Virus record (IMG/VR): IMGVR_UViG_3300032296_001283
Span: 1-39,829 of that record
DNA length: 39,829 nt
Strand: one strand, 5' to 3'
Source: a virus
Position 1 is the first letter of the stretch. Every line of letters begins with the position of its first letter. The notes beneath the pieces are model-generated. The model was not told the origin of the DNA. It did not search any database and worked only from the letters and a program-made list of their open reading frames with translations. Below, piece by piece: positions 3,069 to 27,637 of the stretch. Position numbers and translations under genes: made by a program.

Positions 3069-6000
3069 ATGCCTCAAGATCCCTCGCAGCCTCAAGTAGC
3101 CTCTGGATACTACCCTGCTGATGGGGGTTATTCTGCGCCAGAACAGTACGCATCCATATCTTCTGAAAAGATAATTCCTGCTGGATCTATAATCGAGCTT
3201 CCATATCACAGGAAGGACGGAAAGCCAATCCAGCTCAGGCTGGACGAGGATGTGCGCGAGAGTGATCTTCAGGCTGACATTGACGCTCAGTTTCCAAAGA
3301 CGGCCCAGAACATTGCGCTGGAAATGCTGGAGTCACCGGAGAAAGTCAGCAAGGAAGACTTTGATTTTGCTCTTCAGCAATCCGAGGCAATGCAGGGCGC
3401 TAGGGGGTTGCGTGAAAAGGGGGATCAAAAGACGCTCTCAAGGCTGGCGGATGTCCTGCCTCATGCCCTTAGTTCTCTTTATGAAGGGGCGCTGGCACTT
3501 GGACAGTCCGGCGTGATGGCAATTAACACCGAGTTAACCACTCGTCAGCAACTTAACGCTCTTGGCTCGATAGTTGAAGGTGGGATTCGCGGGACAAAGC
3601 AGCTTGCGGATATTGGAAGGATGGGATTCAACCTTGCCACTCTTGATAAATATGACGCATACGCCGCATTGAAAGACATGCAGGCTCAGGAGGAGATCTA
3701 CAAACAAGGTGGAGGCACGATCCCGTTAGACCCTTGGGCCGCTGAACAGGCAAACAAGATCAAGAACGTACTGGATGTTACGGTGTTGATGCCGGGAATT
3801 GGCAGCTTGCTTGGAAATCTTGGGAAAGAAGTTGCAGTTCAAACCATCAAAGATGTAGCAAAACAAACCAGCGTTGGAGTTGGCCGTAAGGCTGCTGCAT
3901 TTGCGGCAAGTGGAATTGGCAGCACTGGCAGGGAGATCCTCGACGCCGCTTCAAAGAAGTTTGGCGAGTCAGCAGGAAAGATAGCATTAGCTGGCGGGGT
4001 GTCGGCTGGCGTACAAGATGATGGTGGCGTGCTTACTGGCCTTGGGACTGCCCTTGCCTTGTATGGGGCACCAACTGCACTCAAGTATAGCATGTCCACT
4101 TTAAAGTGGGCAGGCAAGATTGCTGGCGCGGATGCAGCAAGTGAAGTTATTGCACAGGGGCTAAAAGACGCAACAGAAAAAGGAGTAAGCGAACCCGTGC
4201 TTAGGGCGGTTGCAAAGGCGCTGCCGGGCGATAGTGCAATGCGAGCCTTTGGTCAAATCGCAGATTCAAGCATTAACGGTGGATTGATTGGCGCGACTAT
4301 CGCTGGTGTACAAGCTGCCGCTGACCCATTTAACACTGGCGGAGACATTCTTGAACAGGCGTTTATTGGTGGCGTTGCTGGCACAGCAGTAGGGGCGGCG
4401 ATTGGTCCGATTCCAGCCATAGCTGAATACAGCGCAGCAGGACGCAACCGTGCGTTTGTGCGCGAGATGGCAAAAGACATTGCTGGTCGCCCCGAGAACC
4501 GCAGTTTTGTTGTGGACGGACAGGAGATCCCGGTTGCTGACATTCAGAACAGGATCAAGTTGCTTAATAACGAAGAGATGTCCACAACGGACAAGGCTCG
4601 TATCTTTGCCATCCTTAAAAGTGCCGAATACTCAGGCAACGACGTTGGGTTCATTGACAACAATACTGTTCTCCCCGAGTCGCTTGGCGGCAAAGGTGAG
4701 TTCATGGGCAAGGGAGTGCGGGTCACCCCGGGGTATGACGGCAAACGCTCCACTGTTCTTGTTAACGTGGATCAAATTACGCCTGCCAGTGCCATTGAAG
4801 AGGTGGCTCATACTTTTATTAGTCGCGAAGCTGCCAAGAAATTTGTTTCTGACTTGGTTGTTGACCGTGGAGGCGTGTCTGCTGCACTTGAGCCGCTCAT
4901 TGAACTTGGGCAACGCTACTACGATCTTCAATTGCAGAGCAACCCGCAGGCCGCTGCCAAGTTTGGCAGAGATCTTGCAATGGCTAAAGATGCCAATCTC
5001 CCGCCAGAGGTTCGCCAGCAAGCGGCAATTACACTCGCTGAGGAATGGGCGGCAAACGGTATTGGCGAGTATCTTAAGAATGAAGATCCAACCGTGCTTC
5101 AAGTTGGAAGAGGCAATCAGAATTTTATTGGCGACATTATTCGCAAAGGATTGTTTGAGATCAACTCAGGCCTAAATCTTAAGCCTACCGCTCCGACTTA
5201 CGATCCGATCACAGGCTTCTACTACAAAGATGGCAAGCTGATTGATGACCCTGTACTTGCGGACATCAGCAAGAAGATGAAGAATGCCATTTTGTTCTTC
5301 GACAAGAACGAAGGGGCTTATTTCCCGTCAGATAGAGCCGCAGGCAAGCCCAGAGCTAAAGCCCCAACAAAGTCTCCAGCAGAACAAGCCGGAGTGCAGA
5401 TCAATGACAAGCTCATCGATGGCACGTTAATTACTGGCACTCGGCCAATGGCTCGCTACGAGGATACCCATGCGGTGGATCAAAAGAGCGGAGCAAAGGC
5501 CGGAGCAGAGACAACCAAGACTGGAGTAAAGCCAAGAGGAAAAGAAAAGACTGAGCTTGGGAAAGATGACTATCACAACATTGTCTTCCAGCAGTTTGCC
5601 AAGATCACAGGCGAGCAGGCACTTGACCCGGAGGCAAATGCAATAGGTCTTTACTTTGGGAACACATCAAAAGTACCTGCTGGCACCCCGATTGTTTACA
5701 CAAGATCTTTAGACAACGCGCAGCTGGAAGGGTTGTTTAACATCCAAACGCATCAAGGAAAGCCTTTGATTGCGCCAGAAAACCGCGATGCCGTTGCTCG
5801 CTTCAATCAAGCCGCAAAAGACGGAAGCATCATTGTCGTGGATTACGACATGAACATTGGCAAAGAGACGGCAGGTAGAAAGTACGCAGTAAGCGGACAG
5901 CAAGTTCTCTTGCCTCTTGGCATACAGCAAACACAGACCGGAGGGCCGATTGCTGGCGTTTACAATCTTTCTTTGCTTAACGACATCATTAACTATCAGC

Positions 6001-7760
6001 GGCTTCTGCCGGGGATGGAAAAGGTTGACGGTGCATTGGCTCAGTTTGGAATCAACACACTTGCTGACGTTGTCCCGCTCGTAAGGACTCACATTGAGAA
6101 CTACTCAAGTGCAGGGGCGCTGCCCGGCGTGGATGCACTCATGGCGGCATATCCAAACGTAAGCAAGGAAAGCGCAACGATCCTTCGGGATCTTATGCAC
6201 TTGTCCTCCAATATTCAGCCAAGGAAGTCTGCTCCTGATGTGCGGAAGAATGAGCCATTTATTGGATCTCTAACAGAACTGCCAAGGCGCAAGGTTGAAG
6301 CGTACAGCGTGCAGGGTGAGCGCAGCGAGACTGTGATGGCACGCGAAAGAAGCGTGAGCAACGACATCCGTTTGGATGCCATTCGCAACACGCAGCTTTA
6401 CGCTGGGCCAGATGGGTTGCCTGTTAAAGTTAACGTCAACCTTGAGCAGTATGTTCCAAAGCAGCGTTCAAACTTTAGCCCATCAAGATCCATCCCAGAG
6501 ACTCTTGGAGACAAACAGGTCATCACTGACCCCGAAACTGGGCGCAGGGCTTTCATCCAGCCTAATGGCAGAACGAAAGTGTACGGGAATGATGGCGCAC
6601 TCATGGGCGTCTATGAGGATTTTACCGAGGCACAGACCAAGCTGAATCAAGCTGACATGCGCTTCTCCCCGAGAAGTCCTGCTGCAATCGCTCGTCGAGC
6701 CGAAGAGGCAAAGGCCATGCGTGCAAGGATGGAGGAAGAGGCTCCTGTGAGGATCATGACCGAATGGCTTTCCGCCGCTGGTCAAGCCAAGCAAAAAGAA
6801 ACTCCATCAGAACGAGCAGAGCCGCAACGCGCAAAGGGCAAGGTGCGTCCTTCGATTGTCGAGCAGGCAAAGGTGCAGGCTCAAAGTGAGTTGCTGAGAC
6901 GGGCAGAATCCACGGCAGGGTACGCCCAGCTTTCCAAGGGACAAAAGGCTCAGTTCCTTAAAGACGCAGCTGAGGCAAGAAATGGCATTGCTCAAAAGGC
7001 ACTTGAAAGAATCGCTGCACAGCAACAGGCAAAGCGAGAAGCCTTCCAGCAGGAGGTTGAAGCATTCAAGACAAACACCAAGGCCTACCTTGCAAAGAAA
7101 GATGTCCCGTTCTTGGATATCGAAGAGACAAGGCAGGTGCTGCGCAAGAAGCCAAGCAAGCGAATTGAGGCAACTCCTACACAGCTTGAGGCTATCGCAA
7201 GACTTGAAGTTGCGCCTGAGTTTGTTCGTCGCGATCTTGGCCCCACGCCAAAACCAACAAAACCCGGAACGTATAGTAGCTTTGAGGCACTTAGCAGTGT
7301 TGGGCTTCCAAAGGAAGATGTGCCAATCAAACAAACAATATCACCTCGCGTAGTCAACTTGCTTGGAACAGCCCCAACAAAGTCTATGGCGCGAATACTC
7401 TCAGGGCTTGCCCAAAGAGCCGGGGAGATGCCAAAGCGCAAACAGCCGCCCATAGGGGCAAGAAAGTTCATGGCGCAAATTCTTGATGAGCTTGCAAAGA
7501 AAGCCGCAGACATGCCAAAGCGCGAGCCTGTAAGGATAGAGCCAACGGCAATTCCTGAGCCGCAGGTTGAGATTGTCACGCCAATTGACGAACCACGTTT
7601 GCCGTCCAACATGATTGTGACTCGCACTCCAAAGGGCAACTTCCAGCTATATGTGATTACATCTGCTGGCAAGATCTCCTCGGAAGGTCTATACAAGAAC
7701 TACCGCGAAACCCTGCAACGCGCACAAACTAAACACCAAAGACGTTATGCCACTCGTTAA
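3069..7760 (+). CDS. Very large putative ejection protein (1563 aa)
   Basis: This is the longest gene in the window. Residues ~130-450 contain several long Ala/Gly-rich hydrophobic stretches that could insert in membranes, as in ejected channel proteins. Residues ~570-590 read ASAIEEVAHTF, resembling a zincin helix, but the first His of HExxH is Glu, so activity is doubtful. The C-terminal third is highly charged, Lys/Glu/Ala/Gln-rich and probably coiled coil, ending in a short ordered domain. Size and position match the largest ejection protein of podoviruses (T7 gp16 is 1318 residues), though I see no direct similarity or lytic transglycosylase motif. A polyvalent injected protein is another possibility. 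Confidence 0.65.
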   Translation: MPQDPSQPQVASGYYPADGGYSAPEQYASISSEKIIPAGSIIELPYHRKDGKPIQLRLDEDVRESDLQADIDAQFPKTAQNIALEMLESPEKVSKEDFDFALQQSEAMQGARGLREKGDQKTLSRLADVLPHALSSLYEGALALGQSGVMAINTELTTRQQLNALGSIVEGGIRGTKQLADIGRMGFNLATLDKYDAYAALKDMQAQEEIYKQGGGTIPLDPWAAEQANKIKNVLDVTVLMPGIGSLLGNLGKEVAVQTIKDVAKQTSVGVGRKAAAFAASGIGSTGREILDAASKKFGESAGKIALAGGVSAGVQDDGGVLTGLGTALALYGAPTALKYSMSTLKWAGKIAGADAASEVIAQGLKDATEKGVSEPVLRAVAKALPGDSAMRAFGQIADSSINGGLIGATIAGVQAAADPFNTGGDILEQAFIGGVAGTAVGAAIGPIPAIAEYSAAGRNRAFVREMAKDIAGRPENRSFVVDGQEIPVADIQNRIKLLNNEEMSTTDKARIFAILKSAEYSGNDVGFIDNNTVLPESLGGKGEFMGKGVRVTPGYDGKRSTVLVNVDQITPASAIEEVAHTFISREAAKKFVSDLVVDRGGVSAALEPLIELGQRYYDLQLQSNPQAAAKFGRDLAMAKDANLPPEVRQQAAITLAEEWAANGIGEYLKNEDPTVLQVGRGNQNFIGDIIRKGLFEINSGLNLKPTAPTYDPITGFYYKDGKLIDDPVLADISKKMKNAILFFDKNEGAYFPSDRAAGKPRAKAPTKSPAEQAGVQINDKLIDGTLITGTRPMARYEDTHAVDQKSGAKAGAETTKTGVKPRGKEKTELGKDDYHNIVFQQFAKITGEQALDPEANAIGLYFGNTSKVPAGTPIVYTRSLDNAQLEGLFNIQTHQGKPLIAPENRDAVARFNQAAKDGSIIVVDYDMNIGKETAGRKYAVSGQQVLLPLGIQQTQTGGPIAGVYNLSLLNDIINYQRLLPGMEKVDGALAQFGINTLADVVPLVRTHIENYSSAGALPGVDALMAAYPNVSKESATILRDLMHLSSNIQPRKSAPDVRKNEPFIGSLTELPRRKVEAYSVQGERSETVMARERSVSNDIRLDAIRNTQLYAGPDGLPVKVNVNLEQYVPKQRSNFSPSRSIPETLGDKQVITDPETGRRAFIQPNGRTKVYGNDGALMGVYEDFTEAQTKLNQADMRFSPRSPAAIARRAEEAKAMRARMEEEAPVRIMTEWLSAAGQAKQKETPSERAEPQRAKGKVRPSIVEQAKVQAQSELLRRAESTAGYAQLSKGQKAQFLKDAAEARNGIAQKALERIAAQQQAKREAFQQEVEAFKTNTKAYLAKKDVPFLDIEETRQVLRKKPSKRIEATPTQLEAIARLEVAPEFVRRDLGPTPKPTKPGTYSSFEALSSVGLPKEDVPIKQTISPRVVNLLGTAPTKSMARILSGLAQRAGEMPKRKQPPIGARKFMAQILDELAKKAADMPKREPVRIEPTAIPEPQVEIVTPIDEPRLPSNMIVTRTPKGNFQLYVITSAGKISSEGLYKNYRETLQRAQTKHQRRYATR

Positions 7761-9845: not shown

Positions 9846-10677
9846 GCTACGCATCACAACCGCAGGCGGCACCAAGATTGAACTCGATATTCCAATCGAC
9901 GATTCTAAGCCAGCTTCCACCGAGTCCGCTGTACCTTGTCAGCCAGCACAGGATACCCTTGTAGAAACGGCCACAGAATCGCAGGACGAGGTAGTCCGCA
10001 TGTTCGATGAGCCAAAGCCTGTGCAGTCTGTGCAGGATCTTGTCGAGGCCTATCAAGGGAAGCTCGCCCAGTGCGCGGACATTCTCGGTGATGACACGAT
10101 GAGTGCAGAGCAGGCGACTGAGGCGTTGGATAAGGCAATGAGGAAGTACAGCACTTCACCAACCTTTCCAAGCAACAAAGATCTTGAGCCTACCGGGAAG
10201 CGGTACACTTCCGTGGAAGCAATGGTTGAGGATACTTGCCCTGAAATCCTAGAGGCTTTCATGCAAAGCCTACAGCAGGGGGAAGGGGAAAAGGGGGAAG
10301 ATGGTAGGATAGGGGGTGTGGGGGAAAGGAAGGAAGATGGGGAAAAGGGGAAACCCGAGCAATCCGAAGCCTTCAACTTTGAGTTCCCCTGCAAAGGCGG
10401 CAAGTACACTCCTCCCGTCCAACTTGTCAAAAACCACATCGCAACCTACGGTGAGCAGTTCGTGATTGAAGAATATCGTGAAGCGCAAAACTGGCTTATC
10501 TTCACCCCGGCAAGACTCAAGACTGAGGGCGGCACAGGCAAGTATCTTTCTGGCTGGCTCAAGCGTTCACGCAAGTTCCGCGAGGAGGAGGCACGCAAGA
10601 TAGCCGCGCAACCAGTGCGTGTTCACCAGAAGGCAGATAATTTACTGAGCAATGCAAACACGCAAGAAGGCTGGTAG
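9838..10677 (+). CDS. Putative replication initiator / helicase loader
   Basis: This 279-residue protein directly precedes a DnaB-type helicase, the usual place for a phage initiator or loader. Residues 1-130 are acidic and helical. Residues ~145-170 are a low-complexity Gly/Glu/Lys linker. The C-terminal ~90 residues (GGKYTPPVQLVKNHIATYG..., WLIFTPARLKTEGGTGKYLSGWLKRSRK) form a compact helical domain resembling DNA-binding or loader C-termini in phage replisome-organiser proteins. The linker is encoded by a G-run purine tract, reminiscent of lambda, where the origin lies inside gene O. The 3' end overlaps the helicase start by 26 nt. Confidence 0.5.
   Translation: MIKLRITTAGGTKIELDIPIDDSKPASTESAVPCQPAQDTLVETATESQDEVVRMFDEPKPVQSVQDLVEAYQGKLAQCADILGDDTMSAEQATEALDKAMRKYSTSPTFPSNKDLEPTGKRYTSVEAMVEDTCPEILEAFMQSLQQGEGEKGEDGRIGGVGERKEDGEKGKPEQSEAFNFEFPCKGGKYTPPVQLVKNHIATYGEQFVIEEYREAQNWLIFTPARLKTEGGTGKYLSGWLKRSRKFREEEARKIAAQPVRVHQKADNLLSNANTQEGW
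10278..10350 (+). repeat. Purine tract with seven G4-5 runs
   Basis: Within 73 nt there are seven runs of four or five G (starting at 10278, 10285, 10293, 10312, 10320, 10339 and 10347) separated by purines with very few pyrimidines. It satisfies a G-quadruplex pattern several times over and encodes only a low-complexity linker. A candidate origin, unwinding or pausing element inside the initiator-like gene. Confidence 0.6.
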
Positions 10678-11368
10678 TCCGCCACCGGAGCTGGAGTTGT
10701 GCAAGGCTGAGGAAGCGGAGAAGGGATTAGTCAGTGTCATCCTCAACCACCCCGAAGATGCCCTGCTTAAGATCACGGAACTCGCGTTCAGCACAACAGA
10801 CATCTTTGATTTGCGCCTGCGTAAGATTGCAGAGGTAACCCTGCAACAGGCGGCACAGGGCAAGGCGACAGACATTCGCGTGATATACGAGCTGGCACGG
10901 CAGGACACTCATCTGGAATTTTATGAGTTGAGTGAGTTGTACACGGTTGCGCCATTACTGTCGCTCGCTCAAGAGTTTATCGATCTTACCCGCACTGCGG
11001 CAAAGAGGAGGGCGATGCAGATCGTCATCCATAACGCGCAGGGCGAGGTTAAGACTGGGAACCTTAATGACTTCCTGACTTCCCTTGTGGCTGTTAGTGA
11101 AGGGGTTAAGAACGAGATCAGCCCTCCGAGTATTCTGGACAAAAACGCAATGCTTGTTGAAGCGACCAATCGTTACGAGAAGGGCGATGACGCAAACATG
11201 CGGATACGGACGGGATTCCCTGAGATTGACAATATCACACCAATGCGCGAGACAGACTTGATCGTGTTTGGCGGAGAAACCAAAAGCGGAAAAACAACAA
11301 TCGTACTAAACATAATAGCAAACATCCTAACACATGAAGTTCATCAACTTGACACCACACAAAATTAA
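10652..11368 (+). CDS. Replicative DnaB-type helicase, N-terminal half (split gene)
   Basis: The 238 residues comprise a DnaB N-terminal helical domain (~15-110), a linker, and the start of the RecA-like ATPase: RIRTGFPEIDNITPM, then Walker A GETKSGKT at 208-215 and the following helix TIVLNIIANILTHE (216-229). The frame then runs into the start of the next gene and adds nine unrelated residues (VHQLDTTQN) before stopping. The rest of the ATPase domain is encoded 1.6 kb downstream (12939-13535). Joining the halves at Glu229 and Lys2 of the second restores 21 residues between GKT and SLEM, the number I count in E. coli DnaB and B. subtilis DnaC. The protein should unwind the fork if the halves assemble. 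Confidence 0.85.
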   Translation: MQTRKKAGSPPPELELCKAEEAEKGLVSVILNHPEDALLKITELAFSTTDIFDLRLRKIAEVTLQQAAQGKATDIRVIYELARQDTHLEFYELSELYTVAPLLSLAQEFIDLTRTAAKRRAMQIVIHNAQGEVKTGNLNDFLTSLVAVSEGVKNEISPPSILDKNAMLVEATNRYEKGDDANMRIRTGFPEIDNITPMRETDLIVFGGETKSGKTTIVLNIIANILTHEVHQLDTTQN

Positions 11369-11660
11369 CGTCACCGGATATGGTGACTTGGAGCCCTCTG
11401 GAATCGTCAGCCGCAGTCACGGCCACCTCATGCAGGTGGATGTAATCGACGGAGTACCGATCATGGTTGCAGAATTTGCTGGAGTTTCCAACCTGCCTGA
11501 GCCAAAACGAGGAGTGATTTACATCGTGCCAACGCACGTTCGTGAAGCACTGCCAGACCGAAGTGACTTAGCGTCACCAAGTAAACTGATCCGCAACAGT
11601 GTCGGGCACGTCATCGGGTGCGGAGCATTGCAAGTCAACAAATCCTACAAAGTAAAATGA
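11334..11660 (+). CDS. Conserved phage protein of the MKFINLTPH type
   Basis: This 108-residue protein opens MKFINLTPHKINV, has a central VDGVPI-like strand region, and ends with YIVPTHVREALPDRSDLASP and GHVIGCGAL. That layout is recurrent in small proteins of actinobacterial and other phages, with no known function. It is the first gene of the cassette lying within the helicase, and its ATG sits in the helicase frame's overrun. It ends in an ATGA overlap with the nuclease gene. Confidence 0.75.
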   Translation: MKFINLTPHKINVTGYGDLEPSGIVSRSHGHLMQVDVIDGVPIMVAEFAGVSNLPEPKRGVIYIVPTHVREALPDRSDLASPSKLIRNSVGHVIGCGALQVNKSYKVK

Positions 11661-12439
11661 AACGAGAACTAATTCAAAATCTAGAGATGGCCGAGTACAG
11701 AAAGCTGCCCGGTTTGTCCAAGCATCAGCTCGATGCCTTTGGCGTGTGTCCCAAGTACTACCAGTGGCGTGGAGGACAGGAGTTCAAGCCAACCCGCGAG
11801 ATGGAGATTGGCACCTGCATTCACTCACTCCTGCTGGAGGGGCGCGTGGATTATGTGCAGGCACCGGAGATCAACCGCCGAACCAACGCTGGCAAGGCTG
11901 AATGGGAGGCTTTCTGCTACGACAATCAAGGTAAGTTCGTCATGAACGCTGAGGAGGTTGCGCGTATCGAGGGTGCGACTGAAGCTGCCCAGCCGCTCAT
12001 AAACATGATCACCGCAAAGAAGATCATCGAGGGCTCGATGTTCTGGGAGCGCGGCGGGTTGCAGTGCAAGGGCAGGCCGGATCTCATCACCGAAATCAAG
12101 GGAAAAGCAGCAATCGTTGACCTAAAGACCACTAGCGACATCCTGCGGTTTGACTCCAAGTTTTTTGGCCTGAAGTATGACAGGCAGGCGGCGTGGTACG
12201 CTTACGGTCTCAAACAGATTCAAGGCTTGGATGATGTGGACTTCTACTTCTTGGTTGTGGACACCGAGGAGCCACACCTTGCACAGTGGGTTAAACCAGA
12301 CGAGGCAGTACTGCAAAACGCAAACCTCAAGCTCGACGAGCTGGTCGCGAATCTCAAGCACTGTCAGGAACTGGACGCTTGGCCGGGGTTGCCGATCATG
12401 AAAACCATCACACTCAAGTCATGGCAGGTTGGATCATAA
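11657..12439 (+). CDS. PD-(D/E)XK nuclease, exonuclease VIII/DUF3799-like
   Basis: The 260-residue product opens with LSKHQLDAFGVCPKYYQW, a RecB/Cas4/RecE-type N-terminal signature, followed by MEIGTCIHSLLLE. The catalytic set is GRPD (Asp142), VDLK (Asp155, Lys157) and QAAWY (Gln177, Tyr181), matching the D...DxK...QxxxY order of RecE-like nucleases. It probably processes dsDNA ends for recombination, perhaps with a host or phage annealing protein that I do not see here. The ATG at 11657 overlaps the previous stop. It lies inside the split helicase. Confidence 0.85.
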   Translation: MKRELIQNLEMAEYRKLPGLSKHQLDAFGVCPKYYQWRGGQEFKPTREMEIGTCIHSLLLEGRVDYVQAPEINRRTNAGKAEWEAFCYDNQGKFVMNAEEVARIEGATEAAQPLINMITAKKIIEGSMFWERGGLQCKGRPDLITEIKGKAAIVDLKTTSDILRFDSKFFGLKYDRQAAWYAYGLKQIQGLDDVDFYFLVVDTEEPHLAQWVKPDEAVLQNANLKLDELVANLKHCQELDAWPGLPIMKTITLKSWQVGS

Positions 12440-12663
12440 CTCGAAAGACAACGGTGATTGGCGACATCAACCTGCCAAGGCCGAAGATCGTGCAGGACGT
12501 TGTGTTCAGGGGCGAGCGTGAAGCAGCCGAGCGTCACCTGCAAACCATCGTGAACCTGCCGCAGAATCAATCAACAGACATAATAAGCTGTGAAATCAAA
12601 CTACAAAAAGATGAAGGACAAAAAACAGGAACATCAGCAAGGCCCGGCAACGGGAAAAGGTAA
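12421..12663 (+). CDS. Unknown small protein (80 aa) in the cassette
   Basis: MAGWIITRKTTVIGDINLPR... is a short beta-like N-terminal region followed by a Lys/Gln-rich disordered tail. No family is recognised. The ATG at 12421 lies 19 nt inside the nuclease gene and the 3' end overlaps the next gene, consistent with a tightly packed operon. Confidence 0.5.
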   Translation: MAGWIITRKTTVIGDINLPRPKIVQDVVFRGEREAAERHLQTIVNLPQNQSTDIISCEIKLQKDEGQKTGTSARPGNGKR

Positions 12664-12994
12664 GGCGAAGAAGAAGCATTTGAGGCGCATCAAGCCTTGG
12701 AACCTATACTTCATGTGGAAGGATACGCAAAGCGGGGGTATTTCAGATGGAGAAGATAAAGCTCTTTTGTCAACGCCAATCGAGCTTCCGAAGGATTACT
12801 ACCAAAAGGCATTGGAGGAGTATGCGTCAGTATATCGTCGCCCAAAAGATCCAAAGGATGAAGTCATCAAAGGCTTGCAGGATCACATCCGCGACATGAA
12901 GCAGACAATCGCAAACTTGGAAAATAAACTATATACATATGAAAAAAGGAGTAATGATAGTCAGTCTGGAGATGTCAGCCCAGCAGATCATTGA
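12611..12994 (+). CDS. Unknown basic/coiled-coil protein running into the helicase
   Basis: The product (127 residues from ATG 12611; a GTG at 12590 would add seven) has a Lys-rich N-terminus, a middle region (RRIKPWNLYFMWKDT) and a C-terminal coiled coil (IKGLQDHIRDMKQTIANLENKL). Its last ~18 residues (from about EKRSNDSQ) are encoded out of frame by the start of the helicase C-terminal gene, so its original C-terminus seems to have been replaced at the junction. No function is recognised. Confidence 0.5.
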   Translation: MKDKKQEHQQGPATGKGKAKKKHLRRIKPWNLYFMWKDTQSGGISDGEDKALLSTPIELPKDYYQKALEEYASVYRRPKDPKDEVIKGLQDHIRDMKQTIANLENKLYTYEKRSNDSQSGDVSPADH

Positions 12995-13535
12995 TCGGCT
13001 TGTTTCGAACATCGGCGGCGTGCCGCTCAGGGCATTGGCAGAAGGCGTGAAGAGCGAGGCTGAGATGCGCGGCGTGTTCAAGGCAATGAACGTGCTGACC
13101 AAGGCCCCGCTTGTGATCCGCGATGATCTGCATGATATTGCGTCCATTGTGGCTGCGGCCCGAGCGATGGCAAAATCGCCAGAGGGCCTGAAGGTTTTGT
13201 TTGTGGATTACATACAGCTAGTCAGGTGTGATTTGACCACGCACAAGGACATCACGCGAGAGCGCGAGGTTGCCGAGGTTAGCCGCAGGCTGCGTCTACT
13301 TGGGCTGGAATTGGGTTGTGTGGTCTTTGCGATTACGCAGCTTAACGAGCAGGGCAGGGCGCGGGAGAGTCGGGCCATCGGTCAGGACGCAACAGCAGTC
13401 ATTATCGTCAAGCTCACTGAAGATCCAGCGGAGCGCGAGATTAGCATTCCGATTCAACGCTCAGGGCCGTGTGGTGTGAGTACGAAACTTGGATTCATGG
13501 GCAGGCTTGCAAGATTCTTTTCCCTTACAAAATGA
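12939..13535 (+). CDS. Replicative DnaB-type helicase, C-terminal half (split gene)
   Basis: The 198 residues begin at the strand after Walker A: VMIVSLEMSAQQ (motif H1a, SLEM at 9-12). They continue through Walker B VLFVDYIQLV (86-95), H3 CVVFAITQLN (127-136), IGQDATAVIIV (147-157), and a terminal region RSGPCGVSTKLGFMG like the H4 stretch. There is no Walker A here; it is on the other half (10652-11368). I use ATG 12939. GGAG lies just before a second in-frame ATG at 12954, too close for good initiation. All motifs look intact, implying selection to keep the split protein working. The ATGA overlap leads into the next gene. Confidence 0.85.
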   Translation: MKKGVMIVSLEMSAQQIIDRLVSNIGGVPLRALAEGVKSEAEMRGVFKAMNVLTKAPLVIRDDLHDIASIVAAARAMAKSPEGLKVLFVDYIQLVRCDLTTHKDITREREVAEVSRRLRLLGLELGCVVFAITQLNEQGRARESRAIGQDATAVIIVKLTEDPAEREISIPIQRSGPCGVSTKLGFMGRLARFFSLTK

Positions 13536-23128: not shown

Positions 23129-25237
23129 ATGTATTCAGCTTCTTCTGATCCTCTGGCTATTGCGACGAATGTACCCGATGTCGGGGATTTGTTGAGCGAG
23201 TATGGCCGCGCAATGGTCAATTCCACGCAAGGAAACCTGACCACCAAGTTTGACGATATTCGGTTTGCCCGTTGGGCTGGTCAGAGTGATGACGGCAAAA
23301 AACACAGCAATCTTCGCCCTGAGGGCGATCCAGCGTGGCCGTTTGAGGGGGCAAGTGATGTTCGCAACCGTTTGATTGACTCAACCTGCAACGAGCTGTC
23401 TTCGCTTTTGGTTACAGCTTTTGAAAGGTCAATCATCCGCGCAAGCGGGGTTGAACTTAACGACACATCCATTAGCGGAATCGCCACCACCCTTTTGCAG
23501 TGGATTCGCGACAATAAGATGCCGCTTGAACTTCGCAGGGAGGCTGAACTTGGCGCACAGTACGCTTTTCAGTACGGCTGGACGGCTTTCTTTGTAGGCT
23601 GGAGACAGAATATCAGCAAGCGCGAGCAGCAGGTTACCATGCAGGAAGTTGTTGCCATTGCACAGCAAAGCGGCAGCCCCACACTCATGCAGTTGCCTGA
23701 TCTCATCATGCAGCAATCCGAAGAAGCTGCGGCAATCATTCAGGCTGCTGTGCCGGGGACTACAGAGTCTGAGGCCAAGCGTATGGTCAGGGAACTTGCC
23801 GAAACTGGCGTAACCACCCGCGACGAGGAGTACGTCAGCAAGAACCTGCCCGAGATCATCGCACTCAAACCTTGGGATGAAATTCTTTTTCCGCCCGAAG
23901 CAGCGGACTTGCAGCGTTCCCGTGTTATCTTCCGCCGCACTTGGATGAGTGAGGTTGAGATCCGCGAGAAGATCACCACAGAAGGCTGGAACAAGGACTG
24001 GGTGGAACTTGCCGTACAGATGGCTGGCAAAAGCAGCACCGTCTACAATACAAACATTTTGCCAAGCACGGAGATGCTCGTTTACAACGGGCTGAACTAC
24101 CAAAACATGATTGAGGTGGTGTACTGCTACACCAAGAGCTTAGATGGAAAAGCCCCCTGCATCTATTACACAGTCATCTGCCCGCAGGCAGCCGTGGATC
24201 ACCGCAAGGAAAGAATCTCTTATGCCATTCACGAGAGACTGGATTACGCGCACGGAGAGTATCCGTTTGTGGAGTTTCGTCGCGAGTGCATTCGTCGCGC
24301 CATCACTGATTGCCGTGGTGTCCCTGAACTTGCTCACACAGATCAGGATGAAATCAAGGCGCAACATGACTCCATCCGGGATCATACTGCCTTCTCGACT
24401 CTTCCTCCCATCAAAGTCGTCAAACGGATTGGAGCCATCAACAAGGTTGGCCCCGGCGTATCTTTGCCAGTGGTTAACCCCACGGACTACACGTTCATGG
24501 ACCCGCCAGCACGCGAGCCAAATGTTGCCTTTGAGCTGATTAAACAAGTTGAAACAAGTCACGCAGCTTACTTTGGCACTGTAAATCCTCTTGTTGACCC
24601 TCGTAAAACGCAACTGTCACAACAGGCGCTTGTCAACACTTGGTTGCTTACTTGGCGGAGCGTCTATCGGCAGATGTTTGCGCTTTGCTGCCAGTACATG
24701 AGTCCTGAGGAGATCCAGCGCATCACCGGAGGGCAATTGCCGCAGAGTTTGTCAGAAATCCACAACGAATTTGACCTTACCGTCAAGTTTGACGTGATGG
24801 ACTTGGATAAAGAGTACATTGCCCAGAAGATCGACTTCCTTACCAAGATTGCACAGATGGACACTGGCGGAGTACTAAATCGCAACAAGTTGACAGCAAT
24901 GATGATTCAGGCTGTCGCACCAGAGATGGCGCAGGAGCTTATCCTCAACCCGCAGGATGCAAGCCGACAGATGTTCAAGGATGTCCAGTCAGACATTGGC
25001 AACATGCTGCTTGGCAACGAGGCACTTTACCAAGAAAACGATCCCGCCGCACAGACCAAGTTGCAGTACGCCCAGCAGGTCATGCAATCCAACCCGAAAG
25101 CGCAGGCGGCTCTCCAGCAGGACGAGAACTTCAAGGCTTTGTTTGAAAACTACGTTAAGAGTCTTCAAATGTCGATTATGCAGCAGCAAAACGCGCAAAT
25201 TGGCCGCATCGGTGTAACTCCTGTATCACAACAATAA
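23129..25237 (+). CDS. Portal protein
   Basis: The 702-residue product follows the terminase and precedes the scaffold and capsid, the standard portal place. Its length fits large podoviral head-tail connector portals. N-terminal features include EGDPAWPFEGASDVRNRLID and a helical core; the mid-region carries a Tyr/Trp-rich alpha/beta wing. The C-terminal ~120 residues are Gln/Ala-rich helix (coiled-coil barrel-like, as in P22-type portals). Twelve copies should form the DNA channel and bind the terminase. It ends TAATG with the next gene. Confidence 0.85.
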   Translation: MYSASSDPLAIATNVPDVGDLLSEYGRAMVNSTQGNLTTKFDDIRFARWAGQSDDGKKHSNLRPEGDPAWPFEGASDVRNRLIDSTCNELSSLLVTAFERSIIRASGVELNDTSISGIATTLLQWIRDNKMPLELRREAELGAQYAFQYGWTAFFVGWRQNISKREQQVTMQEVVAIAQQSGSPTLMQLPDLIMQQSEEAAAIIQAAVPGTTESEAKRMVRELAETGVTTRDEEYVSKNLPEIIALKPWDEILFPPEAADLQRSRVIFRRTWMSEVEIREKITTEGWNKDWVELAVQMAGKSSTVYNTNILPSTEMLVYNGLNYQNMIEVVYCYTKSLDGKAPCIYYTVICPQAAVDHRKERISYAIHERLDYAHGEYPFVEFRRECIRRAITDCRGVPELAHTDQDEIKAQHDSIRDHTAFSTLPPIKVVKRIGAINKVGPGVSLPVVNPTDYTFMDPPAREPNVAFELIKQVETSHAAYFGTVNPLVDPRKTQLSQQALVNTWLLTWRSVYRQMFALCCQYMSPEEIQRITGGQLPQSLSEIHNEFDLTVKFDVMDLDKEYIAQKIDFLTKIAQMDTGGVLNRNKLTAMMIQAVAPEMAQELILNPQDASRQMFKDVQSDIGNMLLGNEALYQENDPAAQTKLQYAQQVMQSNPKAQAALQQDENFKALFENYVKSLQMSIMQQQNAQIGRIGVTPVSQQ

Positions 25238-25488
25238 TGACGGAAGATCAAAAGAACGCCTTTGGATTTTCGGGCAAAAACATTGTTTGGACTGAAGTCA
25301 TCAAATTAATCGAAGACATGCAGCAGCAGCAGTGGATGATTGCCATCAGCAAAGACACAAAAGGTGAAGATAGAATACACGCATGTGGTTCAGCGGACGG
25401 TATTAATCTAGTTTTATCGACACTTGTACAATTTAGACAGGATGCAAGACAATTAAATGGCTTGACTCCTACAGAAGATTTGGCATAA
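25237..25488 (+). CDS. Small conserved protein between portal and scaffold (83 aa)
   Basis: MTEDQKNAFGFSGKNIVWTE... is helical, with TKGEDRIHACGSADGINLVLST resembling small podoviral proteins found in the same slot. TAATG coupling to the portal suggests a head-assembly role. Function unknown. Confidence 0.6.
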   Translation: MTEDQKNAFGFSGKNIVWTEVIKLIEDMQQQQWMIAISKDTKGEDRIHACGSADGINLVLSTLVQFRQDARQLNGLTPTEDLA

Positions 25489-25503
25489 CGCCACTGACGG
25501 GCT

Positions 25504-25520
25504 TTCCAGCGTTACTGGAA
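25504..25520 (+). other. Hairpin before the scaffold gene
   Basis: TTCCAG-CGTTA-CTGGAA forms a perfect 6-bp stem in the 62-nt gap before the scaffold gene. A weaker AAGG/CCTT stem with TTTT follows at ~25529-25547. It may act as a processing or attenuation site. Confidence 0.4.
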
Positions 25521-25550
25521 TGATAAATTAAGGACTTGCTACCTTTTAGC

Positions 25551-26549
25551 ATGACAAAAACAACTACACAGCCTGATTCCGGGAGTCAGGAGGCAGCACA
25601 AGTACCCGTTGCAAATAACCTCGGAGCGATTGATGGAGACAGTTTAACTGATTTCATTAAATCAAATTTCCTTGACGAGGAAGGGGCGGCTCCAGCCAAA
25701 GAGGAGCAGCAGGCTGAACCTGAAGCAGAGACTGAGGAGCCAATTGTGGACTCGGAAGTGGAAGCTGAAGAAGAAGCCGATCAACCCGCTGAAGAAGAAA
25801 GCGAGGCTGAAGAAAGTCCGTTGAGCAAGGGTGTCCAGAAGCGCATCAACAAGTTAGTTGCCGCGAAGAAGGCCGCTCAAGCAGAACTGGAAGCGCAAAA
25901 AGCCAAGTTGGCTGAATTGCAGCAAGAGCTTGAGACTACAAAGTCTTACGTTCCTGAAGCAAAGGTCGATTTTTCTGATGCAGTACAGCGTTTAACCTCG
26001 ATTGAACAAGTCAGGAAGGAACACCAGAATGCATTAGAGATTCTTATGTGGTGCGAAGATAATTCCGATGGTGGCGTTTTAAAGTCATCTGACGGAACTG
26101 AACATGAGTTAACCGCTCAAGAAGTTCGCAGCATGAAGAAATTGGCAATCAGGCGCAAGGAAATCGAACTGCCTGCCCGTGCTGAATATATTCAGCATTA
26201 TGCACAAGCGAAGGCTAACGCAATTAAGGAAATGCCATTTTTAGCAGATCCTAAAAGCGAAAAGTATCAAGTTGTGCAGCAAGTATTAAAGGATTTCCCA
26301 GAAATTAAACGTAGGCCAGACTTTGAGTGGCTTGCTGGTATATTTGCACTTGGCGCAGAGGCTATGGCCTCCAAGCAGGCAGCAAAGAAAACAGCAGCAC
26401 CAATCAAACGCGCCCCAGCGCAACCTGCGGTTAAGGCTGCTCCGGTGACGGTGTCTAAAACGGATCTTCAGAAAGCCAAGCAATCCTTTGCAAAGGATTC
26501 TTCGATACGTGGAGTTGAAGACCTCATTAAAGCAATGGACTTAGTTTAG
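25551..26549 (+). CDS. Putative capsid scaffolding protein
   Basis: The 332-residue product from ATG 25551 has a very acidic N-terminal third (EAETEEPIVDSEVEAEEEAD...), a long Lys/Ala/Glu coiled coil (~95-135), and a basic Ala/Pro-rich C-terminus ending in a short helix. Acidic, coiled-coil, basic C-terminus and position directly before the capsid gene are the typical scaffold signature. It would line the procapsid and exit on maturation. Confidence 0.8.
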   Translation: MTKTTTQPDSGSQEAAQVPVANNLGAIDGDSLTDFIKSNFLDEEGAAPAKEEQQAEPEAETEEPIVDSEVEAEEEADQPAEEESEAEESPLSKGVQKRINKLVAAKKAAQAELEAQKAKLAELQQELETTKSYVPEAKVDFSDAVQRLTSIEQVRKEHQNALEILMWCEDNSDGGVLKSSDGTEHELTAQEVRSMKKLAIRRKEIELPARAEYIQHYAQAKANAIKEMPFLADPKSEKYQVVQQVLKDFPEIKRRPDFEWLAGIFALGAEAMASKQAAKKTAAPIKRAPAQPAVKAAPVTVSKTDLQKAKQSFAKDSSIRGVEDLIKAMDLV

Positions 26550-26578
26550 TCCTTAACAACTCAAACCTTATTTAGTTT

Positions 26579-27637
26579 ATGGCAATTCTTACTGAACCTA
26601 ATCTTAGTGGCCGTGGTAAACGCGAAGATCTTGCTGACATGATCAGCATGGTTGACGCAAAAGACACGCCTTTTACGTCTATGGCCCGTAAGGGCAGCAA
26701 GCCCGGAAACATGTATTTCCGTTGGCAGGCAGACAGCAATCCTGCACCCAAAGTTGGTGGTACTGTTGACGGCACCGATGTGACGTCCAACCAGTATGTC
26801 AACTGGGATGTGGGCTATCGTGCGGAACTTGCGAACTACGCGCAGGTCTTCCGTATGGATCCTGTCCGTGTGTCTAAACTTTCTACTGACATTGCCCAAG
26901 TGGCAGGTGTCCGTGATGAGTTGGCATACAACGTCAGCAAGTCCATCCTTCAGTGCAAGCGTTCGATTGAGACGACTCTCTGCTCGAACCAAACTGCACA
27001 GCAGGACAACGGATCTGTTCCTTACCTCACGGCAGGGATTCAGACTTGGATCAGCAACGCTGGTACTGGCACGCCTACTCCCGGCGACATTCCTTCACAG
27101 TTTCGCACTCCTACGGATTCGATCCTGACTGGCGCGTCCAGCGGGTTGACCGATACGGCTGTGCAGGGTCTGCTCAAGAGCATCTACAATCAGACTGGTC
27201 AGTATCGCTCCTATGATGCGATTGTTGGCACGGATCTGAAGCGTGCTTTCACGAGCCTCCTTGGCACTACCGCTCTCACCACTACCAGCACTGCTGGCGT
27301 ATTGGGCGCAGGCGCAACCAAGGTGCAGACCTTCCAGCGTGATGCTTCTGCCGAGGCTTACATCCAGTCGGTCGATGTGTTTCAAGGTGACTTTGGCACT
27401 GTAAAATTGCATCCCACTGTGTTTCTCGGGACGATCTCTGGTGGAAACTGGACGGTCACCCCGTACAAAGGTCTTGTCCTGAACATGGACTTGATTGAAG
27501 TCCGTTACGGTGGAAACGTCGCTGCGGTACAGGCACTGCCTGACTTCGGCGCTGGTGCTGCTCGCCTCGTTGAAGCGGTTTGCGGTCTGGTTGTCGGGAA
27601 CCCGTTGGGTCTTGGCAAGTTTGACTTCAGCTCGTAG
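26579..27637 (+). CDS. Major capsid protein, SU10/DUF5309-like
   Basis: The 352-residue protein opens MAILTEPNLSGRGKREDLAD and DTPFTSMARKGSKPGNMYF. It has central NYAQVFRMDPVRVSKLS and ends PLGLGKFDFSS. The TPFTS...KxGxxxxxxFxWQ start and the later APxGTxxxxxxxxL-like layout match the DUF5309 / SU10 capsid family, an HK97-type fold. It follows the scaffold gene. The leader CTTATTTAGTTT before ATG lacks Shine-Dalgarno despite the high expression expected. A strongly structured intergenic region follows its stop. Confidence 0.85.
   Translation: MAILTEPNLSGRGKREDLADMISMVDAKDTPFTSMARKGSKPGNMYFRWQADSNPAPKVGGTVDGTDVTSNQYVNWDVGYRAELANYAQVFRMDPVRVSKLSTDIAQVAGVRDELAYNVSKSILQCKRSIETTLCSNQTAQQDNGSVPYLTAGIQTWISNAGTGTPTPGDIPSQFRTPTDSILTGASSGLTDTAVQGLLKSIYNQTGQYRSYDAIVGTDLKRAFTSLLGTTALTTTSTAGVLGAGATKVQTFQRDASAEAYIQSVDVFQGDFGTVKLHPTVFLGTISGGNWTVTPYKGLVLNMDLIEVRYGGNVAAVQALPDFGAGAARLVEAVCGLVVGNPLGLGKFDFSS

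Follow-up and report, generated by a model that had tools for sequence, protein, structure and literature searches.

Two helicase genes and the genes between them

The window, the whole 39,829-base stretch analysed here, comes from one virus record and carries on the same strand two ORFs with DnaB-type helicase motifs, referred to as the N-half and the C-half (Table 1). Both lie where the earlier note had placed them, the N-half ending past the Walker A helix and the C-half opening at the next strand. Walker A of the N-half reads GETKSGKT, with codons from 11273; the C-half contains the catalytic Glu in SLEM, Walker B as LFVDYIQL, the DNA-loop motif RESRAI and the arginine-finger motif QRSGP. 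Against Pfam, the N-half gives a weak DnaB match (E 0.0027) and a match to DnaB_C model positions 2-46; the C-half covers DnaB_C positions 49-253 of 255 (E 3.5e-31). Neither half alone attains the curated TIGR00665 score. DnaB is here not a single continuous polypeptide: two ORFs stand 1570 bp apart, from the N-half stop to the C-half start.

Table 1. ORFs of the helicase locus, in window coordinates
Feature	Coordinates	Strand	Remarks
DnaB N-half, 238 aa	10652..11368	+	Helical N-terminal domain, linker, P-loop strand, Walker A, helix A; stop codon shortly downstream
ORF, 108 aa	11334..11660	+	Start overlaps N-half end; family phrog_30542/21731; in 49/75 gaps
PD-(D/E)XK nuclease, exonuclease VIII-like, 260 aa	11657..12439	+	DUF3799; phrog_412; between the halves in 75/75 loci
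ORF, ~80 aa	12421..12663	+	ATG at 12421, open frame from 12379; family in 62/75 gaps
ORF, 134 aa (~127-134)	12590..12994	+	Variable slot; overlaps C-half start; replaced by other genes in relatives
DnaB C-half, 198 aa	12939..13535	+	Strand 2, SLEM, Walker B, DNA loop, arginine finger; without Walker A

The earlier note described the intervening DNA as a 1.6-kb cassette. Genes do lie between the halves, but they do not form a single mobile insert; the gap consists of a conserved exonuclease VIII-like gene (75/75), usually two small genes, and then a variable slot. ORFs cover 100% of the gap in the window and a median of ~98% among relatives, and gap length and gene content vary among relatives (1.3-3.6 kb). 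Members of the ~80-aa ORF family, seen in 62 of the 75 gaps, range over ~80-105 aa, and a nucleotide-kinase-like P-loop ORF occurs in 18/75 gaps. The variable slot ahead of the C-half (e.g. L065, L116 and L148) often holds an ORF of differing length that is labelled cytosine-methyltransferase-like from our own reading of the slot sequences. In other contigs, relatives of the exonuclease at ~35% identity have no DnaB nearby. The window ORFs of 108, 260 and 134 aa match no homing-endonuclease family.

Position of the cut and predicted folds

On the NCBIfam DnaB model TIGR00665, N-half residues 19-229 align with model positions 5-223 and C-half residues 2-197 with positions 224-434 of 435. Profile searches of PDB sequences place the two halves on Geobacillus (Bst) DnaB 2r6a at positions 11-228 and 233-440, respectively. 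Because these matches complement each other, the two halves are, as judged by profile alignment, one complete DnaB cut at the loop joining helix A and strand 2. The rejoining of Glu229 to Lys2 suggested earlier is borne out by the model, in which N-half residue 229 (position 223) and C-half residue 2 (position 224) abut. The count of 21 residues from GKT to SLEM, presumably also that of E. coli DnaB, for which the earlier note gives it, holds in the majority form of the clade as well: 13 residues follow GKT, then MNKGILVI precedes SLEM, the start Met being counted as a loop residue. In most members the N-half ends 11-16 residues past GKT (maximum 37), and across the clade the C-half opens with M-x-x-G immediately ahead of strand 2. 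Among close relatives the start MKKG (ATG-AAA-AAA) is constant while the bases preceding it are unrelated, and this is therefore the true gene start of the C-half.

The C-half modelled alone has the DnaB C-domain fold (pLDDT 79.5, TM ~0.7-0.8 of query); of its 347 PDB matches at E<=0.001 the best are all DnaB, and they identify a RecA-type fold. The N-half model is good only in the N-domain, with pLDDT ~40-58 in the P-loop region when modelled alone, which is expected if the N-half needs its partner. Matches of the N-half model include 2r5u, the N-domain of DnaB from M. tuberculosis (TM of target up to 0.84), as well as full DnaB chains. The helical N-terminal domain of the DnaB family is thus recognisable both in this model match and in TIGR00665 positions 5-223, and Walker A, the SLEM Glu, Walker B and the arginine finger are all present, the Lys next to the finger not being kept.

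Relatives, selection and descent

Protein scans identify at least 10 close IMG/VR contigs, at 72-97% identity, with the order N-half, small ORF, exonuclease VIII-like ORF, small ORF, C-half. The repetition of this layout in independent contigs disposes of the assembly chimera that the earlier note had named as a danger. A wider IMG/VR search used a degenerate pattern for the clade motif QLNEQGxARESRAI. It returned 110 contigs: 98 with a stand-alone C-half that has its own start, 8 cut by contig ends and 4 intact; since the pattern was derived from the split clade, 98/110 does not estimate how often DnaB genes at large are split. The equally split relatives proposed as a check thus exist, together with four intact outgroups (L049, L060, L107 and L149). 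These are the nearest intact forms found; they have RESRAI in common with the split clade and keep their own Walker A. The N-half lies upstream on the same strand, 1.3-3.6 kb away, in all 75 loci that hold both halves. Each of the 18 records of 37-43 kb has exactly two DnaB_C matches (~2-47 and 46-255), and no intact DnaB copy is present in any of the 18, although such records may be incomplete. The split is ancestral to a large clade, neither recent nor peculiar to this phage.

All members of the split clade are metagenomic contigs, one of them inside a Verrucomicrobiota MAG, and none is a cultured phage. This contig, from a Pedosphaera MAG and found in the motif scan, has both halves and the intervening genes, and it gives a weak hint at the host. 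A protein scan of host genomes with the C-half gave no match. Among cultured phages the N-half has no match and the C-half reaches at best 31% identity; for the halves of the wider clade the best identities are ~34% and ~30%.

The earlier observation that the motifs look intact in both halves extends to the clade: Walker A is invariant in 72/72 N-halves, and none of the 95 C-halves examined departs from SLEM, DYxQL, REREVAEVSR or QRxGP. Overall dN/dS is 0.01-0.07 for the C-half and 0.02-0.13 for the N-half; against the window, where computable, it is ~0.05-0.07 and 0.07-0.13. Each half is under strong purifying selection. Relative to canonical DnaB, the C-half lacks about a dozen residues ahead of the DNA-loop motif. 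Its finger retains the Arg, with I, Y or F standing where the usual K-Q-R has Lys. With these residues missing and the finger lysine replaced, function could be affected and the motor may be altered.

In a C-domain tree with long branches and an unknown root, 28 split rows fall on one side of a branch (support 100/98) and 11 intact rows on the other, and one fission would be the simplest reading. The distance matrices of N-half and C-half agree (Mantel r 0.95, 0/2000 permutations), and distances of the N-half, C-half and exonuclease are strongly correlated with one another (r 0.88-0.95), as joint inheritance predicts.

A proposed two-chain helicase and its alternatives

The interpretation held with high confidence is an old gene fission of single origin, whose products reassemble non-covalently as a DnaB-like hexamer with two chains per ATP site. 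Established structures of DnaB show the P-loop strand as part of the RecA sheet, with the catalytic Glu and Walker B beyond the position of the cut. An ancestral phage dnaB would have undergone a single break, in the surface loop that leads from helix A, past Walker A, to strand 2, ahead of SLEM. Genes centred on the nuclease would have come to sit between the pieces. N-half and C-half would be made as separate proteins of one gene module and associate non-covalently, the N-half completing the RecA-type core of the C-half with its P-loop strand, Walker A and helix A. The catalytic Glu, Walker B, the DNA-binding loop and the arginine finger are on the C-half. Six such heterodimers may form a DnaB-like ring unwinding phage DNA. 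The C-half core would need the N-half strand because the P-loop strand belongs to the RecA sheet, and each ATP site would need both chains because the P-loop and the catalytic Glu/Walker B flank the cut. Homology, exact complementarity, conservation, selection and the lack of an intact copy in the long records are direct results; we infer single origin, assembly, and ATPase and helicase activity. The earlier note thought a two-chain ATPase plausible, its P-loop and Walker B being divided between the chains; this proposed enzyme gains support from the invariant motifs and from the missing intact copy (18/18). It is likely, with less assurance, that the whole phage clade uses an obligate two-chain RecA-fold ring helicase with the P-loop strand in trans and with assembly as a control step.

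The halves might instead never reunite: the N-half could act by itself, perhaps as a host-helicase decoy, and the C-half could act unaided on DNA. Modelling predicts a good fold for the N-domain by itself, and some phage proteins do hijack host helicases and loaders, but Walker A is invariant in N-halves, as are the catalytic Glu, Walker B and the finger in C-halves, and motifs that would be useless apart argue against separate action; nor do the 18 long records hold another DnaB. This reading is unlikely. Removal of the 1.6 kb at the RNA level, through group I or group II intron self-splicing or another form of joining, would yield a full-length DnaB, and it is very unlikely despite the fact that the rejoining point would be a natural loop and that phage introns are frequent in replication genes. 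No Rfam match reaches the gathering score in the window, only chance-level matches occur in 11250-13000, and the gap, being fully covered by ORFs, has no space outside coding sequence for a ribozyme core; neither Rfam nor the ORF coverage of the gap revealed such a core. The variable gap length and gene content, and the unrelated sequence ahead of the constant ATG-AAA-AAA, also speak against an intron.

Ligation of the halves after translation by a split intein, as reported for fractured gp41-type helicase genes, is extremely unlikely. The gp41-1 split inteins, which take their name from a T4-type helicase, are widely known as a tool, and a literature on split inteins, gp41 and fractured genes exists, but the short N-half tail past GKT and the M-x-x-G abutting strand 2 leave no room for intein parts, and neither half matches an intein family. 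An assembly error or a decaying pseudogene carries next to no probability, given the same layout in many independent metagenomes (~100 contigs) and the low dN/dS: independent relatives rule out a chimera, and values of ~0.01-0.13 per half rule out a recent pseudogene. Excision at the DNA level at ATGAA, a sequence shared near both junctions, was rejected by inspection; the copies lie in different frames and therefore simple recombination between them would leave the reading frame unrestored.

The preferred two-chain helicase resembles DnaB (TIGR00665; Geobacillus 2r6a/4esv, E. coli and Vibrio cholerae) in its full domain set, their order, the core motifs and the lack of loss at the junction. 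It differs in that a cut puts Walker A and the catalytic-Glu strand on separate chains, that the stretch ahead of the DNA loop is shorter and that the finger lysine is replaced. Phage genes in pieces include Aeh1 NrdA split by mobE, the T4 gene 39/60 topoisomerase and the Aeromonas phage 25 gene 43A/43B polymerase; activity is reported for NrdA and the polymerase once their split chains are reassembled (PMC2988022). As in such genes, the coding region is split, both parts are conserved and intact relatives exist, and one enzyme would arise from the reassembly of two polypeptides. Unlike in those cases, the enzyme is of the RecA-fold hexameric helicase type, the cut falls inside the ATP site, and the split has become fixed throughout a large clade. 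What separates the parts is an exonuclease VIII-like nuclease gene together with small ORFs, with no homing-endonuclease family among the ORFs scanned; a homing endonuclease gene is one route to such splits, not an obligatory one. The gp41-1-type fractured genes likewise have a helicase gene divided in two within phage-like DNA; here intein parts are absent, and so no ligation of the halves is expected. A literature search that stopped short of subscription papers and bioRxiv brought up no earlier description of a replicative helicase whose cut separates Walker A from the catalytic Glu/Walker B.

If true, a hexameric replicative helicase can have its ATP site shared by two polypeptides, with the break running through the central RecA-fold sheet, and stay under selection for long. 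Such a natural split motor could serve in P-loop dissection and in the design of switchable helicases. Half-by-half annotation overlooks a helicase in a common phage group.

Elsewhere in the window, an ORF at 278-1120 has a phosphoadenosine phosphosulfate reductase domain (E 6e-11). A 1563-aa protein at 3069-7760 has no significant family match, and in the relative L018 its place is taken by a protein only ~23% identical. Upstream of the split helicase, 8819-9148 matches the RusA-like Holliday junction resolvase family (phrog_244). The region 23129-27637 gives a weak SU10-type portal match and encodes a clear SU10-type major capsid protein.
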